From contig JAKACD010000012.1 in NCBI GenBank assembly GCA_021821785.1, positions 1 to 35,853 on the forward strand: a stretch of DNA of 35,853 bases, written 5' to 3'. The DNA comes from Thermoplasmata archaeon (GTDB taxonomy: Archaea > Thermoplasmatota > Thermoplasmata > Lutacidiplasmatales > UBA184). The translations under genes were made by a program, and so were the position numbers. Below, piece by piece: positions 269 through 9,878 of the stretch (its first letter is position 1; every line of letters starts with the position of its first letter). Below the pieces are notes generated by a model that was given only the letters and a program-made list of their open reading frames with translations, was not told the DNA's origin and searched no databases.

Positions 269-643
269 TCAGGCGAGAAGGCTCCCGAGAATGTACGCGA
301 TGGCGGCCCCGGCGAGGACGATGACCAGGACCTTGAGGAGCCGGACCTGCGCTTCGGCCGTCACCGGTCCCGGGTTCTTCGGCTCGAACTTCCGGCCGAG
401 CGGCCAGACCCGGTACGCCCGGTCGGTGAGGTGGACGACGAGCGCCCCCATCATGAATATCATGGCGACGGCGAGACCGAACGACTCGGTGGTTCCGGGG
501 CCCGTGATGGCCCCGAGACGGATCACGTAGACGATCAGGACCGCGATCCCGAGCAGCATCAGGACCTGAACGGCGGCGTACAGGTCGAGGACCCGGTTCT
601 GGAGCTGCCGGTACGCCTTCGGGTCGTCGGGCAGTTCACTCAA
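269..643 (-). CDS. small membrane protein, last gene of the bc/Tat operon
   Basis: I do not recognise a family. The 124-residue product has three predicted membrane helices (about residues 24-45, 54-73 and 101-123) and a short basic loop near residues 75-90. The start is TTG at 641-643, chosen because it overlaps the stop of the preceding gene and has a GGAGG ribosome binding site 9 nt upstream. Its place directly behind cytochrome b and another small membrane protein suggests an accessory subunit or assembly factor of the quinol-oxidising complex. That role is inference from position only. Confidence 0.75.
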   Translation of the reverse strand: MSELPDDPKAYRQLQNRVLDLYAAVQVLMLLGIAVLIVYVIRLGAITGPGTTESFGLAVAMIFMMGALVVHLTDRAYRVWPLGRKFEPKNPGPVTAEAQVRLLKVLVIVLAGAAIAYILGSLLA

Positions 644-899
644 AGAACTCGATCCTCCGTTGCGTGACGCCCCGGTATCGGTCGACCCGGTAGAGAATGC
701 CGGCCATGAACAGGAACGCGAGCGCCGCGACCACGCCGCCGATGGCGATCGCGATGAGGTCGAGGAGCGAGCCGCCGATGACCCCGAGGATCCCGTAGAC
801 GAACGTCGCGGCCCCGATCGTGCCGAACACGAGAAGGACCGCGAGGATCCCCCAGAGCGTCCCGGTCTGCCAGGTCGGGTGGGTCTCCTCGCTACTCAC
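636..899 (-). CDS. small two-helix membrane protein after cytochrome b
   Basis: No family recognised. The 87-residue product has two hydrophobic helices (about 15-38 and 45-70) and a charged C-terminus rich in Arg. A longer frame begins at 941, but I chose GTG 897-899: it overlaps the TAG stop of cytochrome b by eight bases and has a GGAGG motif about 10 nt upstream, as expected for translational coupling. The gene overlaps the next one by eight bases. It may be a small bc-complex subunit; this is inferred from the tight coupling. Confidence 0.72.
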   Translation of the reverse strand: MSSEETHPTWQTGTLWGILAVLLVFGTIGAATFVYGILGVIGGSLLDLIAIAIGGVVAALAFLFMAGILYRVDRYRGVTQRRIEFFE

Positions 900-2253: not shown

Positions 2254-3093
2254 CTACGTTGGGAAGGAGCAGAGGATCACGGGAGTCTCTTTGACGAGCG
2301 ACGACGTCGAGCCGACCCCATAGTCGCCCTGCAGGGTGTTCAGGTGCCCGTTCACGGGAGGGCCCTGCTCGCCCACCGCGTAGATGTTGCCGCTCGAGTC
2401 GACGTCCAGCGTCACCTGGGGGAGCGGGAGCACCGCGGGCCCGGTGAGGTTCGAGGCCCCATTCGTGACGTCGTAGGTCGACCCATGGCAGGAGCAGTGA
2501 ATGTAGAACGAAAGCGTGGGATACGTCGCGTTCGAGAACGTCTTCGGGCAGGTGCCGGGGGGATAGTAGGAGATCGCCGGCGCGGGGCAGCCGAGGTGCT
2601 GACAGATGGCGCTGTAGGCCACGATCGAGCTGTGCGTCCCGACCCCACCGGGGACGTTCTCGGCCCCGTTCGTGCCGTTCGGAGCCCCGCTCGCCGGGTA
2701 GAGATTGAGCAGGAAGTTCGGCTCGTTGCGGAGAGGGTAGTTGAAGATGTACAGGTCGCTCGTTTGGGCGTTGTACTCCGACTCGACCTTGGCGACCGTG
2801 AGCGGGCTTCCGTCGACGTCGATCAGCTGGACCCGAGGATAGCTCGAGATGCCGATGGTCGGGGGCTGAAGGTACTGCAACGCGCCGCCGGCGAGGCCGC
2901 CCGCCCCGGCGCTCACGAGGCCCGCGACCGCGAGGAGCTTGAGCACGTTGCGGCGGGTCTCGTCCACCTCGCCGTCCGCGGGCGGGTTGGCCGCCGCGAC
3001 CCGGCGGACCTGCCCGACAGGAAACTCGAACGGCGACGGTCGGTCGGCATGGTTGGGGCAGCTCAGCGAGCAATCGGTGGTTCCAAAGGTCAT
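2254..3093 (-). CDS. Rieske 2Fe-2S protein with twin-arginine signal anchor
   Basis: High-potential iron-sulfur subunit of the bc-type complex. The cluster motifs are CQHLGC (C164, H166; C169 for the disulfide) and CSCHGS (C200, H203; C202 for the disulfide), so both ligand pairs and the disulfide are intact. A twin-arginine motif (RRNVLKLL, from residue 47) precedes a hydrophobic anchor at about 51-73, showing Tat export with an uncleaved anchor. An unusually long 44-residue N-terminal part precedes the RR and contains two Cys and a His. The insert between the two cluster motifs is long (about 30 residues). The ATG overlaps the upstream stop (ATGA), and the tat genes lie just upstream in the same run. 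Confidence 0.95.
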   Translation of the reverse strand: MTFGTTDCSLSCPNHADRPSPFEFPVGQVRRVAAANPPADGEVDETRRNVLKLLAVAGLVSAGAGGLAGGALQYLQPPTIGISSYPRVQLIDVDGSPLTVAKVESEYNAQTSDLYIFNYPLRNEPNFLLNLYPASGAPNGTNGAENVPGGVGTHSSIVAYSAICQHLGCPAPAISYYPPGTCPKTFSNATYPTLSFYIHCSCHGSTYDVTNGASNLTGPAVLPLPQVTLDVDSSGNIYAVGEQGPPVNGHLNTLQGDYGVGSTSSLVKETPVILCSFPT

Positions 3094-3275
3094 AGGCTCC
3101 TCCCGCGGGTGTCGGGCACGGCGTCGTCGACCTCACCGGGTACCGGGATCGTCGCATCCCCCGGCAGCTCCGCGCGGTCGCTCCCGTAGTAGACCGCCCA
3201 CGTGATCCCGATCCCCATCAGAATCACGAGGATCTCCGTGAGGGTGATGATCTGGTCGACCGAGAATGCGCTCAT
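3090..3275 (-). CDS. 61-aa single-helix membrane peptide between tat and Rieske genes
   Basis: No family recognised. The product has one membrane helix (about 12-31) followed by an acidic, proline-containing tail. The ATG at 3273-3275 overlaps the TGA of the TatA/B-like gene (ATGA), and its own TGA overlaps the Rieske ATG (ATGA); GGGGAGGAG lies upstream as ribosome binding site. A longer in-frame start at 3347 would lie inside the upstream gene and gives a low-complexity N-terminus, so I rejected it. The coupling on both sides argues that it is a real gene, perhaps a small bc subunit or a helper of Rieske insertion (inference). Confidence 0.7.
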   Translation of the reverse strand: MSAFSVDQIITLTEILVILMGIGITWAVYYGSDRAELPGDATIPVPGEVDDAVPDTRGRSL

Positions 3276-3673
3276 GGATGCCGCTCCTCCCCGAGCACCA
3301 CCGGTGCGGTCATCGTCCAGGTCGGCACCGGCGCACCGCCGGTCCACGGGGTCAAGGGCGACGGGGGCGGGGCGGGGGGCACCACGGGCGGCAGGGCGGG
3401 TGGGGTCCGAACCGCGGCCGGGATCCCCGACGTCTGCGTCGGAGTGGGGTCGAGCCCGAGGAGGGCGCCCCGGACCGAGAGCGGCGCGCCCGTCGGCGGG
3501 AGCGGCAGGTCGGTCGCCTTCGAGAACTCCGTGAGCAGCTCTTGCTTGAGGCGGCCCGCCCGCCCGTACCAGCGACCGAACGTGCGCAGGGTCTGGGCGC
3601 TGTCGTGGCCGAAGAGGAGGAAAAGGGCGGCCCCGACCACGATGATCCAGTCGATGTCGGAGAAGAGCGCCAC
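3272..3673 (-). CDS. TatA/TatB-like twin-arginine translocase subunit
   Basis: The N-terminal layout is that of the TatA/B (Hcf106) family: a short membrane helix (about 8-21), an FG hinge at 21-22, then an amphipathic basic helix (about 26-52). A long proline-rich tail follows from residue 56, giving 133 residues, longer than a typical TatA and closer to TatB size. It would pair with TatC in substrate recognition or pore formation. The GTG start lies 8 nt after the tatC stop, and the stop overlaps the next ATG. The second Tat small subunit, at 4619-4846, is the canonical TatA, so this copy may be specialised (inference). Confidence 0.82.
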   Translation of the reverse strand: MALFSDIDWIIVVGAALFLLFGHDSAQTLRTFGRWYGRAGRLKQELLTEFSKATDLPLPPTGAPLSVRGALLGLDPTPTQTSGIPAAVRTPPALPPVVPPAPPPSPLTPWTGGAPVPTWTMTAPVVLGEERHP

Positions 3674-3681
3674 GGGCTAGA

Positions 3682-4515
3682 TCACCCCGCCCCGACCGCG
3701 GAGAGCGACCGGTTCCGCTCCTCCGAGCGACGCTCCCACCGGGCCGCGAAGTACGCCCCGCCGAGGTAGAGGGCGATCATCGGCAGCGCGATGAGCAGCA
3801 TCGTGATCCCCGAGTTGTCCGGCGTGACCACCATCCCGAAGACGAGGGCGCCGATCACCGCCCCGCGCCAGTGCCGGCGCCAGGCGGCGGCGTGCACCAC
3901 GCCTAGCCGCGTGAGCGCGTAGACGAAAACGGGCAGCTCGAAGACGACCCCGAACGCGAACGAGTAGAGGAGCGCGAACGTCACGAACGCCTGCACGCCG
4001 AGAACGGGGGCGAGCCCCATGGCGGCGACGTAGCGGAAGAGGAGACGGAACGTGAACGGCGTCAGGAAGAAGAAGCCGATCCCGGTCCCGAGGGCGAAGA
4101 GGGCGGTCGCGGGGATCCCGACCTGCCGGATCAGGAGCCGCTCGTTCCGCCGGAGCGCGGGCACGAGGAACGCGCCGACCTCGTGCACGAGCCACGGCAT
4201 CCCGAAGATGAAGGTGAGGAGGAGACCGATCTCCATCTGCACGACGATGGAGTCGCCGACCCCCACGTTGAGGAGCTGCACTCCGGGGGGCAGCATCCAG
4301 CCGACCATCGCGCGGAACAGCTGCGCGGTGATGTTGTAGAACGGGCTCGGCCAGGGGACGGCGAACGGGACCGAGACCCCGAAGAGGGTGAACGGCAGAG
4401 GACGCAGCTCGAAGAGGAGGGTCGCGCCGAACAAGGGGCCCAAGACCAGGGCGATGCGGACCAGTCGGCGTCGGGCCTCTCCCAGGACCGAAAGGATCCG
4501 GTCGAGGTCGCCCAT
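3682..4515 (-). CDS. tatC: Sec-independent protein translocase TatC
   Basis: Polytopic core of the twin-arginine translocase, which binds RR signal peptides and exports folded proteins. The 277-residue product has the six-helix pattern of TatC, with recognisable segments FGMPWLVHEVGAFLVPAL, FFLTPFTFRLLFRYVA and GMVVTPDNSGITMLL. It lies between two TatA-family genes and upstream of the Rieske gene, whose protein carries an RR motif. The ATG at 4513-4515 is the natural start; about 100 nt separate it from tatA. Confidence 0.95.
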   Translation of the reverse strand: MGDLDRILSVLGEARRRLVRIALVLGPLFGATLLFELRPLPFTLFGVSVPFAVPWPSPFYNITAQLFRAMVGWMLPPGVQLLNVGVGDSIVVQMEIGLLLTFIFGMPWLVHEVGAFLVPALRRNERLLIRQVGIPATALFALGTGIGFFFLTPFTFRLLFRYVAAMGLAPVLGVQAFVTFALLYSFAFGVVFELPVFVYALTRLGVVHAAAWRRHWRGAVIGALVFGMVVTPDNSGITMLLIALPMIALYLGGAYFAARWERRSEERNRSLSAVGAG

Positions 4516-4618
4516 CAGTCAACCGGGCACCTCCCTCCCGGACTGAACCGACCCCGGGGCGGGTACGGGTGCGGCGTGAGTTCGCTGTGCGCCTCGCATG
4601 CCGGTCGCTGGCGGGGGC

Positions 4619-4846
4619 CTAGTGGGCCGGGCCCGACGGGCCGGCGGTGTTCGTGGCCCCGGACGCCTCGGACTTGAGCTCGCGTTCGACTTCGAGACGG
4701 CCCTTCTTGAATTCCCCGACCGACCGGCCCAGGCTGCGAGCCAGTTGGGGGATCTTGCTGGACCCGTAGAATAGGATCCCGGCCACTACGGCGATGATCA
4801 ACCAGTCGTCGATGGAGTCGAACACGGCACGCCCCCGCGTGCGCAC
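4619..4846 (-). CDS. tatA: twin-arginine translocase subunit TatA
   Basis: Pore-forming small subunit of the Tat system. After a short N-terminus it has a membrane helix (about 14-28), the hinge FYGSSKIPQLARSLG, and an amphipathic helix (EFKKG) as in canonical TatA, then a polar tail; 75 residues is normal length. Two GTG starts are possible: 4846, which has GAGGT just upstream, and 4825, seven codons later. It is the first gene of the Tat-Rieske-cytochrome b run and has a good TATA box upstream at 4915-4920. Confidence 0.9.
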   Translation of the reverse strand: MRTRGRAVFDSIDDWLIIAVVAGILFYGSSKIPQLARSLGRSVGEFKKGRLEVERELKSEASGATNTAGPSGPAH

Positions 4847-4912
4847 CCGACCTCGGACGATATGGCGTTCGTACGGGAGGACCGAACCCGTACCGTTTGT
4901 CCGTATCCGGGG

Positions 4913-4922
4913 CGTATAAAGC
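4913..4922 (-). promoter_or_regulatory. TATA box of the tat-Rieske-cytochrome b operon
   Basis: Minus-strand reading GCTTTATACG gives a clear archaeal TATA element in otherwise GC-rich DNA. Transcription would begin near 4890, leaving a leader of about 45 nt before tatA. The element sits immediately after the stop of the upstream PhoU-like gene. A GTTCGTACG motif (4867-4875) lies in the presumed leader and recurs before the coxB TATA box. Confidence 0.6.
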
Positions 4923-4924
4923 GG

Positions 4925-5971
4925 TCAGGCCGCCTCGACCAGGATCGTCTCGGTGCCCGCGGCGACGGCCCGGTCGATCGCGACCTCGGCGAGATGGGAG
5001 AGGTAGCCGCTGCCGCGCTGGAGCAGCCGGGTGAGCGTGGGCGCCGACGACGGGGTCGTCTTGCCCTTCCGGGACCCTCGGGTCGGTGGGATCCAGGCGC
5101 CGCTCAGCTCGAGGCTCTGGTGGTAGACGTCGCAGGCGCGGTCGAGCGAGGGGTGCATGAGCGCCTCCACGACCCCTTTCAATTCGGCCTTGAGCTCGGG
5201 GAGCCGCTGGGTCAGGATGGCCCTCATCGCCACCGGGAGCTTCGTGGACTCATCGTTCAGGAGGGCGAGGGTCTCCCCGAACAGCTCGGCGAGCTCGGAG
5301 AGGGCGTGGACGACGACCCGCCACTCCAGGAGCTGGCGGGGATCGGGACTGCCGATCCGCCGGGCGAGCGACCAGTCCCGGCTCGCGAGGAAGAGCTGCC
5401 GGACCAAGAGGGCGAGGACCTTTCCGCCCTCCTCCTCGAGGGTCGAAAGCCGACGGCTCTTCGTCCGCCGCCCGAGGACCTCCTCCATCTCCTCGAGGAA
5501 CGCGACCAGGATCATCTTCATCCGCTGGACCAGCTGGGGCAGCTCGTACTTCGACGGGTCGATGAAGTTCTGCAAGACCATCCGGGTCGGCTCCTGCGCG
5601 ACCACGGAGACCCCGAGAAGCCCGCGCGCCGCGGCGAGCACCTCTTCGACCCGCTCCGGCGCGAGCGGGACGTCCGTGCGGACCTCGATCGCGTCGTGGC
5701 CGACGCGGTACGCCCCGACGATCAGTCGCTCCAGGACCCCGGGCGTATCGAACGCCCGGGCCTGGACGAGGAACGGGGCGACCGTCGGGCTGACCCCGGG
5801 AAGGGGCGCGGGCTTGAGATAGAGCGTGCCGTCGTCGTTCTGGTCGAAGACGATCAGGTCCCCCGGCCGCAGGTTCATCGCTTCCGCCCACGGTTTGGGC
5901 AGCGTGACCGCGATCGACGAGTGTCCGGCCTTCAGTACGCGGCGCTCTCGGCTCGGAGTTCCCCACGCCAT
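4925..5971 (-). CDS. AbrB-PhoU domain regulator (archaeal PhoU-like)
   Basis: The N-terminal region (about 8-53) is an AbrB/SpoVT swapped-hairpin DNA-binding domain, with the segment HSSIAVTLPKPWAEAMNLRPG. The remainder (about 120-340) is helical and PhoU-like. Archaeal proteins of this build are usually annotated as phosphate uptake regulators, but no pst transporter genes lie in the window, so the target is unknown. The 348-residue product starts at ATG 5969-5971. It is upstream of, and in the same direction as, the tat-cytochrome operon, though that operon has its own TATA box. Confidence 0.85.
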   Translation of the reverse strand: MAWGTPSRERRVLKAGHSSIAVTLPKPWAEAMNLRPGDLIVFDQNDDGTLYLKPAPLPGVSPTVAPFLVQARAFDTPGVLERLIVGAYRVGHDAIEVRTDVPLAPERVEEVLAAARGLLGVSVVAQEPTRMVLQNFIDPSKYELPQLVQRMKMILVAFLEEMEEVLGRRTKSRRLSTLEEEGGKVLALLVRQLFLASRDWSLARRIGSPDPRQLLEWRVVVHALSELAELFGETLALLNDESTKLPVAMRAILTQRLPELKAELKGVVEALMHPSLDRACDVYHQSLELSGAWIPPTRGSRKGKTTPSSAPTLTRLLQRGSGYLSHLAEVAIDRAVAAGTETILVEAA

Positions 5972-6068: not shown

Positions 6069-6776
6069 CTAGTGCTTCGGAGGCTCGCCCGGCGTCGCGG
6101 GTGGGACCACCGGACGGGGCGGCTCGGGGTATCCGAGCCGCTCGGGCGGCATCTCGTGCTCCGCCCCCCGGCGCTGACCGAAGACGAAACCGAGGACCAG
6201 CGCGATGACGACGAGCGCCACGATCGTGCCGCTGATGATGAAGACCGCGACCCCAGGGCCGGTCGACGGCGCGCTGACCGTGAGGTTCGCCGGGAGGTTC
6301 TCTCCGAAGGCGATGAACCCGTACATCCCCTGGCCGAAGTGGCCGGGCTCGAGGCACACGAACTCGTACCAGCCGGGCGTCGCCGGGGAGGTGAAGGTGC
6401 CCGAGGCGACGATGCCCGCGCCCGTGACGTTGAGGCTGATGTAGGCGCCGTAGGTCGAGAACAGCTGCTCGAGCCCCGCGCTGCTCGTGCTCGACGGGAT
6501 CACCACGCCCTCCCGCTTGAGCAGCGAGAAAGTGTGGGCGAGCGTATCGCCGTCCGTGAACTGGACCGTGATATTGGTGTTGGTCGGCAGCTGCTGGTAG
6601 GTCGCCTGGACGAACTTGAACCCGGTCGCCGCGGTCACGTCGAGGCTCGAGGAGGTGTCGGTCACGACCGCCGAGGTCGCCGCGGCCCGGGCGAGGCCGG
6701 CCGCCGAGAACAGGGAGACCATCAGCAGGACGGAGACCCCCAACGCGAACGCCCGCGACCGGCGTGATTGGAACAC
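6069..6776 (-). CDS. membrane-anchored blue copper protein (cupredoxin)
   Basis: Extracytoplasmic type 1 copper electron carrier. The 235-residue product has a signal peptide (about 8-32), a cupredoxin domain with copper ligands H81, C141, H146 and M151 in the C-x4-H-x4-M pattern (CLEPGHFGQGM), a C-terminal membrane helix (about 176-199) and a proline-rich cytoplasmic tail. It starts at GTG 6774-6776 and is divergent from the CuA oxidase subunit gene. With no cytochrome c in the window, it is a good candidate to shuttle electrons from the bc complex to the oxidase, as sulfocyanin or plastocyanin-like proteins do elsewhere. The partner assignment is inference. Confidence 0.9.
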   Translation of the reverse strand: MFQSRRSRAFALGVSVLLMVSLFSAAGLARAAATSAVVTDTSSSLDVTAATGFKFVQATYQQLPTNTNITVQFTDGDTLAHTFSLLKREGVVIPSSTSSAGLEQLFSTYGAYISLNVTGAGIVASGTFTSPATPGWYEFVCLEPGHFGQGMYGFIAFGENLPANLTVSAPSTGPGVAVFIISGTIVALVVIALVLGFVFGQRRGAEHEMPPERLGYPEPPRPVVPPATPGEPPKH

Positions 6777-7792: not shown

Positions 7793-8824
7793 TCAGTGGT
7801 GACCGCTCCCCGGAGAGCGGGGGAACCGACCCGAGTACGCGGCGACCAGCGTGAGCACCACGCCGACTCCGAGCAACGCCGCGGAGCCCGCGAGGATCCA
7901 GGTGTCGACGATGGCCGTGGACGGGGGCGCCGGCGGGGCCGGAGGGGTCACGCCCACGTAGAGGAAGCCGTCCATGCCGCTCGCAAAGTGGCCGGGGATC
8001 TCACAGATGTACTGGTAGACGCCCGGTCCCTTGATCGTGAAGTTCGCCCAGACGGTCGACCCTCCCCCGCTGGGGACGGTCGCCGAGACGAGCGGGGCGT
8101 GCTGCTGGAAGTAGGTCGTGAAATTGCCGGGGCTCAGCGTGACGTTCGACTGGGAGGCGAGCGTGAACGTGTGGCCGAAGCTCCCTTCGTTCGTGACGAG
8201 CACATCGATCGATACCGGATAGTGGGCCGGCGCCGCGGTCAGCACGTTCGGCACGAACTGCAGGCCGTCGGTCGTGTTCTCGCTGAGCTGGAGCCCGGGG
8301 CCGGTCGCCGTGAAGTTGAGGAAGCCGAACATCCCCGCCTGGAACTGGTACGGCACGACCGAGACGAACTCGAAGCTCGCGGGCCCGCTCGAGGTGTTGG
8401 CGGAGAGGTTCGCCCAGCCGCTCGCTCCGGGGGCGAGCGAGACGTTCGCGAGCGAGCCGTTCGTCTGGAAGAAGCGGTCGACCTGGGCCGGGGACCACGA
8501 CGGGGAGAGGACGACGTTCGGCTGCGCGACCAGCGTGAACGTATGGTTGAGGTTCCCGGTGTTGGTGAGCTGGATCGAGACCGGGGAGCCCGCGGGCGCG
8601 CTGAGGTACTGCGGGGAGAACGCCGGCTGGTCGGTGAGGTTCACCGAGAAGCTCGCGGTGGAGGCGAGCGGGTGCGCGACCCCGATCATCGGGGCCACGG
8701 GGAGGGTTCCGAGCGCCGCGACGCTGGGCAGGCCGACCGTGGCGAGCAGGGCGGCGGCCACGAACCAGGGAACGGCGCGCCGAAGGTGGGTCGATGTGCG
8801 ACGAAGGACCGAGCGATCGCTCAC
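7793..8824 (-). CDS. tandem cupredoxin, membrane anchored, first copper site degenerate
   Basis: The 343-residue product has a signal peptide (about 10-38), two cupredoxin domains and a C-terminal membrane helix (about 305-330). In domain 2 the type 1 copper ligands are intact: H218, C274, H279, M284 (CEIPGHFASGM). In domain 1 the matching positions are H94, S155, Q160, M165, so Cys and the second His are replaced and it should not bind copper normally. The start is GTG 8822-8824, chosen because the signal peptide follows directly; an in-frame start at 9010 would add 62 low-complexity residues and overlap the next gene. Likely an electron carrier or copper-handling protein on the cell surface. 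Confidence 0.88.
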   Translation of the reverse strand: MSDRSVLRRTSTHLRRAVPWFVAAALLATVGLPSVAALGTLPVAPMIGVAHPLASTASFSVNLTDQPAFSPQYLSAPAGSPVSIQLTNTGNLNHTFTLVAQPNVVLSPSWSPAQVDRFFQTNGSLANVSLAPGASGWANLSANTSSGPASFEFVSVVPYQFQAGMFGFLNFTATGPGLQLSENTTDGLQFVPNVLTAAPAHYPVSIDVLVTNEGSFGHTFTLASQSNVTLSPGNFTTYFQQHAPLVSATVPSGGGSTVWANFTIKGPGVYQYICEIPGHFASGMDGFLYVGVTPPAPPAPPSTAIVDTWILAGSAALLGVGVVLTLVAAYSGRFPRSPGSGHH

Positions 8825-8859
8825 GGGAACCCCGACGGCGCGGAGACTTGGGCGCCGTT

Positions 8860-8878
8860 GATATGGGTAATGTACGAA
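8860..8878 (-). promoter_or_regulatory. promoter of the tandem cupredoxin gene
   Basis: On the minus strand TTCGTAC (8872-8878) lies a few bases upstream of the TATA-like CCATATC (8860-8866). The order resembles the coxB promoter, where GTTCGTACG precedes GATATGTA. Transcription would begin near 8838, about 14 nt before the GTG. Confidence 0.4.
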
Positions 8879-8924
8879 TCGCGCCGCCTCGGCGGGAGAG
8901 CGGCTCCTCGGGGGCCCGGACGGC

Positions 8925-9878
8925 CTAGCGCTCGAGCGTCGGGTTCGGTCGGCCGGCGGGCCATTCCGTCGCCACCGCCTCGTCCGGGGCGCGGGCGACC
9001 CACGGGGCATGGGCCATCCCGTGATAGAAGCGCCGGAAGAGATAGGCGATCTCGACCCCCATCACGGCGCCCATCGTCGCGCCGAACCCGAGGTCGGCCG
9101 CGGTGCTTCCCGAGGTCGCCGCGACCGAGAGGCCCGCGATCGCCATCGCGAGGAAGGCCCCGGCCAGCCCGAACAGGAAGCCGACCTCTCCGCGGGCCAT
9201 ATCGCCCCGGAGGAGGGGACGGAGGAGGAGCACGAAGACGAGGGTCATGATCGTCGCCATCGCGGCCCCGCCCACGGTGGGGAACGCCGTGACCCAGGGG
9301 GCCACGACCGCGGAGAGGGTCAGGGCGAGGAGCGCCCGGCGCTCGATGCGGGCGAGCGGGGCCCAGAGGAGGAGGGCGGACATCACGCCGGCCATCGACC
9401 AGAAGAACCAGATCGAGGCGAGCCCCTGCGCGAACGCCGCCGCGAGCCCCGGCGGGGCGGACGCCGACCCGGTGACGAACAGGATCCCCATGAGCGCCTC
9501 GGAGCCGGTCGTCACGACGGCGAGGGTCGCCGGCCAGAACCAGCTGTCGGTGCGGATCCGCCGGTCGCGGAAGACCACCACGCCGATGAACCAGATGCCG
9601 GCCGGGGTCATCATCATGAAATTGAACGCCATGAGGACCCAGGTCCAGGCATCGGTCCCGTTCGGGTTCAGGAAGACGAAGAGCAGCGCGAGGATCAGGA
9701 GGCTCCCGCCGCCGAGGACCGCGAGCGCGAGGACCATCTGGGTGAGCAGCGGGGGCCGGCCGTCGGACGGGAGGACCTTGCCGAAGAGGAAGATCGTGAC
9801 CCCGACCATCGCGAGCGCCACGGTCGCGAACGGGACCAGCGTGGCGTCGATCGAGAGCGGGGGGAGCGGCAGGGTCAT
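8925..9878 (-). CDS. polytopic membrane protein of unknown function
   Basis: I do not recognise the family. The 317-residue product has about nine hydrophobic segments (roughly 14-36, 44-70, 78-103, 115-137, 145-175, 182-201, 203-223, 233-255, 265-287) with conserved-looking features such as the Met-rich FNFMMMTPAGIWF segment and several Trp residues within helices. The C-terminus is polar. It is flanked by the copper protein genes and transcribed in the same direction as the tandem cupredoxin, with a 100-nt gap. A role in copper delivery or respiration is possible but rests only on neighbourhood and Met-rich helices. Confidence 0.8.
   Translation of the reverse strand: MTLPLPPLSIDATLVPFATVALAMVGVTIFLFGKVLPSDGRPPLLTQMVLALAVLGGGSLLILALLFVFLNPNGTDAWTWVLMAFNFMMMTPAGIWFIGVVVFRDRRIRTDSWFWPATLAVVTTGSEALMGILFVTGSASAPPGLAAAFAQGLASIWFFWSMAGVMSALLLWAPLARIERRALLALTLSAVVAPWVTAFPTVGGAAMATIMTLVFVLLLRPLLRGDMARGEVGFLFGLAGAFLAMAIAGLSVAATSGSTAADLGFGATMGAVMGVEIAYLFRRFYHGMAHAPWVARAPDEAVATEWPAGRPNPTLER

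Follow-up and report, generated by a model that had tools for sequence, protein, structure and literature searches.

The only Tat system of a Lutacidiplasmatales archaeon is probably encoded in one operon with its one evident client, a Rieske protein

Most work on the Tat pathway treats it as a general exporter serving many clients, a setting that obscures why the requirement for the double arginine is so strict and what TatB contributes. The locus described here raises the question of whether a Tat translocon can be dedicated to one client, a Rieske protein encoded beside it. The genes lie in a 35,853-nucleotide stretch of DNA from a Thermoplasmata archaeon (contig JAKACD010000012.1, positions 1 to 35,853, hereafter the window). 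The source genome is a MAG of 1.69 Mb in 99 contigs that is 91% complete. Among named genomes it is closest to Thermoplasmata MAGs, one of them that of Candidatus Lutacidiplasma silvani. The relatedness of TatC and of the block as a whole indicates, at the level of order, that the host is a member of Ca. Lutacidiplasmatales, a little-known group of soil archaea. A preliminary description of the window had proposed a dedicated translocon that is made together with its main client. Based on the results below, we consider it likely that the operon encoding the only Tat system of this archaeon also encodes its one evident client, the Rieske protein.

A gene block for Tat, a Rieske protein and cytochrome b

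The features of the locus are listed in the order in which they are read on the minus strand, with coordinates of the window.

6069..6776, minus strand: sulfocyanin/plastocyanin-like cupredoxin; Pfam SoxE and Copper-bind; conserved neighbour
4925..5971, minus strand: AbrB-type DNA-binding domain protein; Pfam MazE_antitoxin/AbrB fold, 2.5e-10
4826..4924, minus strand: conserved promoter/operator region before tatA, with the CTTTATAC box and CCCGTACGAACGCCATATCG
4619..4825, minus strand: tatA; 68 aa, GTG start; Pfam TatA_B_E, 2.8e-12
3682..4515, minus strand: tatC; 277 aa; Pfam TatC, 7.9e-39
3272..3673, minus strand: TatB-like gene, divergent member of the TatA family; 133 aa; profile-profile match to TatA
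3090..3275, minus strand: P61, single-helix membrane protein with an AELPG motif; 61 aa
2254..3093, minus strand: Rieske [2Fe-2S] protein with a Tat-type signal-anchor; 279 aa; Pfam Rieske, 7.8e-6
2938..2958, minus strand: twin-arginine motif TRRNVLK, residues 46-52 of the Rieske protein, before the anchor helix
892..2238, minus strand: cytochrome b of complex III; 448 aa; Pfam Cytochrom_B_N_2, 1.5e-36, and Cytochrom_B_C, 1.2e-7
636..899, minus strand: orf101, small membrane protein within the conserved block; conserved position; 8-nt overlap with cytochrome b
269..643, minus strand: orf124, small membrane protein at the block end; conserved position; 8-nt overlap with orf101

We found that tatA, tatC, the TatB-like gene and the genes for P61, the Rieske protein and cytochrome b make up one block on the minus strand. 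Exact ATGA overlaps occur at 3272-3275 (TatB-like/P61) and at 3090-3093 (P61/Rieske), so that the overlaps from the TatB-like gene through the Rieske gene are as first described. The gaps between the other genes are 8 nt (tatC/TatB-like), 15 nt (Rieske/cytochrome b) and 103 nt (tatA/tatC). The preliminary description had the tat genes leading directly into the rest of the run; order and strand hold, but tatA is more loosely attached, being 103 nt from tatC. It had also placed the run, cytochrome b included, at 2254-4846. Two corrections are needed here. Cytochrome b (892-2238) falls outside that span, and the end at 4846 corresponds to an upstream in-frame GTG. We set the start of tatA at the GTG at 4825 using a 14-sequence alignment (A3) in which the relatives begin at the equivalent codon.

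Upstream of the block are the genes for the AbrB-type regulator and the sulfocyanin-like cupredoxin, followed by a divergent CoxB-type gene. The cupredoxin encoded at 6069..6776 is likely to be the electron acceptor of complex III. A gene for a protein with cupredoxin-like domains (7793-9010, minus strand) adjoins the CoxB-type gene and is probably in a respiratory island.

The gene order SoxE-AbrB-tatA-tatC-TatB-like-P61-Rieske-cytochrome b-orf101-orf124 recurs in 13 genomes of the same genus or family, at 14 loci of which some are truncated or have end genes missing. A search of the genome collection yielded 80 related loci. Within the reach of their contigs, all 80 preserve this order, on whose conservation the preliminary description had let its proposal depend. 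Stop-start overlaps were present between P61 and the Rieske gene in 74 of 77 loci and between the TatB-like gene and P61 in 64 of 77. Because both the order and the overlaps recur across the relatives examined, the block with its overlaps is not a product of chance.

The association between Tat and the cytochrome bc genes extends beyond the order. When 120 Thermoplasmata genomes were compared, 37 contained both TatC and cytochrome b and 71 contained neither. Counting against a link are seven genomes that have TatC without cytochrome b and five with the reverse. The co-occurrence had a Fisher p of 2e-18, a value that ignores kinship. In 30 of the 37 genomes having both, tatC is located no more than 10 kb from cytochrome b; the two genes are co-directional in Lutacidiplasmatales and divergent or convergent in other families. 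This survival of the linkage through rearrangement argues for a function, beyond inheritance alone.

Several variants of the locus were observed among the relatives. In the Thermoplasmata family f18 (L014, L015, L016, L018, L022, L023, L024), tatA-tatC is divergent from Rieske-cytochrome b with a short shared intergenic stretch, and some of the Rieske proteins of this family also have KR in place of the double arginine. Loci from other genera of the host's family (L041:4150-4840, L043, L044, L045, L219, L225, L226, L229, L231) contain an extra Rieske-fold gene between tatA and tatC. In its product CxxCGS replaces CxCHGS and the CxH pair is often lost; one of these proteins matches Pfam Rieske at 3.6e-4, and some start with an RR-x-x-LK-type motif. 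The extra gene, which is internal to the tat operon, is a degenerate paralogue of the Rieske gene. In another subgroup (L223, L224, L227, L228, L232) a different, unrelated-looking frame of ~170-215 aa fills the tatA-tatC gap. One genome of the same genus (G073) has two complete copies of the block (L036 and L037), with a KR Rieske signal in one and RR in the other, and this may reflect a mixed bin.

We examined the region upstream of tatA for sequences that could direct transcription of the block. A TATA-like box is located ~95 nt upstream of tatA, and CCCGTACGAACGCCATATC is found ~48 nt upstream in most relatives. The motif TACGAAC occurs at 66 of 75 loci, 62 of which have it 42-51 nt before tatA, and it is unique in the scanned 77% of the genome. 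A strict TATA hexamer occurs upstream of tatA in 9 of 77 loci (1.3 expected), always at 90-98 nt, and a looser TTTAT box is the consensus. The spacer between tatA and tatC contains no TATA-like hexamer in the 77 loci. GTACGRAC repeats are found between the TATA-like box and tatA (4826-4924, minus strand). We rejected the idea that the tatA leader is a structured RNA, as RNAalifold found no structure in 61 loci, making a DNA operator likelier. The neighbouring AbrB-type protein, the gene for which adjoins tatA in most relatives, is a candidate regulator. The spacing, the overlaps and the placement of the promoter are consistent with one transcript from tatA onward.

P61 belongs to no Pfam family and had no significant match. 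It is conserved in 13 of 13 family genomes, with no clear match outside, and it is predicted to contain one membrane helix together with an invariant AELPG motif; ATGA overlaps flank its gene on both sides. A TatA-type identity was rejected, the hhalign probability against TatA being 1%. Orthologues in other genera have a signal peptide at the N terminus and a cysteine-containing extracytoplasmic segment, suggesting that P61 is probably a bitopic protein that acts as a subunit or assembly factor of complex III.

Tat components and their clients

TatC gave a single match in the genome, and Pfam-level TatA, the TatB-like protein, the Rieske protein and cytochrome b are encoded once each. No second TatC or Pfam-level TatA was found, and the second complete general Tat operon that could have spoken against the preliminary description is absent from this 91% complete MAG. 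Thus, the Tat of this block is the only Tat of the cell, with no general Tat beside it. TatA contains a transmembrane helix, a hinge and an amphipathic helix, and alignment A3 matches solved TatA chains. TatC matches solved TatC chains, the best with an E of 1.5e-20. Its E125 aligns with E103 of E. coli TatC, and from the shared E-x-R-x-R context its E13 would be the counterpart of E. coli E15. Both of these signal-pocket residues are invariant in 70 of 70 relatives.

To identify Tat clients we used a home-made rule, (R/K)R followed by a hydrophobic stretch near the start codon, on 1.29 Mb or 77% of the genome; an earlier pass of the same scan had covered 40%. Among proteins with 0-1 further membrane helix in this 77%, the Rieske protein was the only convincing candidate. 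The TAT_signal model had no match in the whole genome, the sulfite-oxidase family was not found in the genome, and the lone molybdopterin protein of the genome begins without a signal. Archaeal Tat signals may be atypical. With this caveat, we accept from the heuristic scan of 77% of the genome that the Rieske protein is the one main Tat client.

These results separate two parts of the original proposal. There is good support for the idea that Tat and its main client are made jointly. The word dedicated holds insofar as no other client was recognised in 77% of the genome and the TAT_signal search was empty. It does not hold in the sense of a specialised second translocon, and the dedicated status of this Tat is by default, it being the sole system.

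The linkage might instead reflect respiratory house-keeping, in which genes for complexes III and IV, the cupredoxin, haem synthesis and Tat are gathered in an island for aerobic respiration, with Tat acting on many clients without recognisable signals. Sulfocyanin and CoxB-type genes do flank the block, and other Thermoplasmata have tat and bc genes 5-8 kb apart. Such an island is described in the main text of Sheridan et al. 2022 (PMC9287336), according to which complex IV genes of Lutacidiplasmatales adjoin those for complex III, haem A/O synthesis, a twin-arginine system, a cupredoxin and six unknown proteins. We nevertheless think this explanation unlikely, given that the tat genes belong to the Rieske operon itself, where genes overlap translationally, and are not just near it, and that 77% of the genome yielded no other client signal.

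The TatB-like protein alone had no significant match in Pfam. Compared with the TatA profile from the same group, its profile matched with 95% probability (E 2e-8), and the TIGR01411 model for tatAE matched 8 of 14 members, the best at 2.6e-4. The AlphaFold model, which is of modest confidence (mean pLDDT 62.5, ~72-88 over the helices), has helices at residues 6-21 and 25-53 joined by a hinge and followed by a disordered tail. A Foldseek search of this model against the PDB gave no match, as is expected for a two-helix, low-confidence model. The profile matches and the model point to a member of the TatA/B superfamily. We call the protein TatB-like, not TatB, because it matched neither a TatB-specific model nor a solved TatB; its NCBIfam Tat matches were to TatA/E models only and it had no PDB match. 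It was found solely in the family of the host, and apparent occurrences in other Thermoplasmata were rejected, the outside matches being TatA itself or weak chance matches. Archaea are usually described as having TatA and TatC only (PMC2910488, PMC3189178), and a conserved second TatA-type partner beside tatC would be unusual among them.

It is doubtful that the TatB-like protein is an assembly factor for complex III or the Rieske protein that resembles TatA and has no part in the translocon. Such a role would fit its restriction to the group, its long disordered tail, and the lack of the proline that follows the hinge glycine in TatA, but not its match to the TatA profile and to TIGR01411, its predicted TatA-like pair of helices, or the location of its gene next to tatC.

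The Rieske signal-anchor

The Rieske protein contains the 2Fe-2S ligands (CQHLGC and CSCHGS). A twin-arginine motif was said to precede its anchor, and we found this motif in the sequence DETRRNVLKL, where R47-R48 come before the anchor helix. As a link to Tat, the twin arginine is present in the window but gives way to KR in most relatives; among 77 sequences including that of the window, the signal is KR in 63 and RR in 14. When 70 of the 77 are placed on a tree built from cytochrome b, at least six changes between RR and KR are needed, five of them forced by well-supported branches. The second arginine and the K of the motif are invariant.

This pattern fits what is known of the signal pocket. 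In E. coli, the first arginine reaches TatC E15 via water and the second forms a salt bridge with E103 (PMC13323110). The equivalent residues E13 and E125 are invariant here, in keeping with a first position that is relaxed and a second that is fixed. We looked for TatC residues that track RR versus KR and found only weak associations confounded by phylogeny. KR is also found in some Thermoplasmata Rieske proteins outside the order, including ones whose genes are far from tat, as in G110. The linkage between tat and Rieske genes thus has no support as the sole cause of KR.

Rieske proteins of the KR type might not be Tat clients at all, the charged pair merely orienting the anchor helix and export taking Sec or a Bcs1-like route, but this seems very unlikely to us. 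In its favour, several bacterial tests found that a lysine in first place is poorly tolerated (PMC7317946), and the KR/RK pairs of mitochondrial Rieske proteins may be there just for topology (PMC6251230). Against it, DE(T/S/A)(K/R)RNxLK hardly differs between KR and RR members, KR lineages retain TatC inside the operon, and single R-to-K changes mostly just slow transport, with thylakoids accepting KR and not RK (PMC6708511).

A possible mechanism and its counterparts in known systems

We propose a mechanism in which TatC and the TatB-like protein would form the receptor, and TatA, the gene for which is first behind the conserved promoter, would be the partner that forms the pore or thins the membrane. 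In the cytoplasm, the Rieske apoprotein would acquire its 2Fe-2S cluster, after which its uncleaved (K/R)RNxLK signal-anchor would dock in the TatC pocket. The folded Rieske domain would then cross the membrane and stay anchored beside cytochrome b made from the same message. Coupled translation would keep the translocon, its client and the partner of the client in step. With one main client, most of the group may have come to accept lysine in place of the first arginine, the second remaining fixed. The genes, their order and overlaps, the copy numbers, the motif statistics and the pocket residues are observed; in this scheme we infer co-transcription, the Tat-dependence of the Rieske protein, the roles of the TatB-like protein and P61, and the cause of the drift to KR. 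More tentatively, the scheme may apply to the archaeal order, with a one-client TatA/TatC/TatB-like Tat translated in step with the Rieske protein and a recognition code that drifted to KR because there is one client, the TatC pocket being the usual one; we regard this wider reading as a real possibility that falls somewhat short of probable.

The co-location of complex III and Tat genes in Lutacidiplasmatales has already been published (PMC9287336). The main text of that paper mentions no Rieske signal, KR motif, TatB-like protein, translational coupling or number of clients. In a literature search that covered few subscription papers, we found no report of archaeal KR Rieske signals or of a tat-Rieske operon beyond Sheridan 2022, and no earlier description of the translational coupling, the TatB-like partner, the single-client state or KR as the norm. 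One visible client, a group-specific TatB-like protein and repeated switches between RR and KR amount to evolutionary experiments on signal recognition. They also support a view that mitochondria and thermoacidophiles had suggested, in which some minimal cells keep Tat at all for the sake of assembling complex III.

The idea of a dedicated pair has precedents in phoD-tatAdCd and in mitochondrial Tat, for which a role in Rieske export has been proposed. In B. subtilis, phoD precedes tatAd-tatCd, and phosphate starvation induces all three genes (PMC3068169). There, as here, a minimal Tat is encoded beside its client, and the B. subtilis Tat is specific for that client; in the present group the adjacency is conserved. 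By contrast, B. subtilis has a second Tat, TatAyCy, whereas one TatC only is present here, and PhoD is a secreted enzyme whereas the client here is a membrane-anchored respiratory subunit. The TatAC or TatC-only systems of mitochondria resemble the present one in being minimal, in having Rieske as the proposed client and in the KR/RK variants of the motif (PMC6251230). They differ in being organellar and in having no operon with the client, and Tat-dependence could not be shown there (PMC6251230).

The Rieske protein itself resembles the Rieske proteins of Paracoccus and Legionella and QcrA of Bacillus, which have a single N-terminal signal-anchor and are inserted by Tat (PMC7317946). These bacterial proteins differ in having an RR motif. 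In bacteria with such Tat-dependent Rieske proteins, the tat genes are not known to lie beside the Rieske gene. A natural KR Tat motif is known from TtrB of Enterobacteriaceae, which a 2019 review called the only known native KR cargo (PMC6708511). The present results correct the idea that a native KR Tat signal is an isolated oddity: TtrB is one bacterial protein, whereas KR is the majority state of the client across an archaeal order here.
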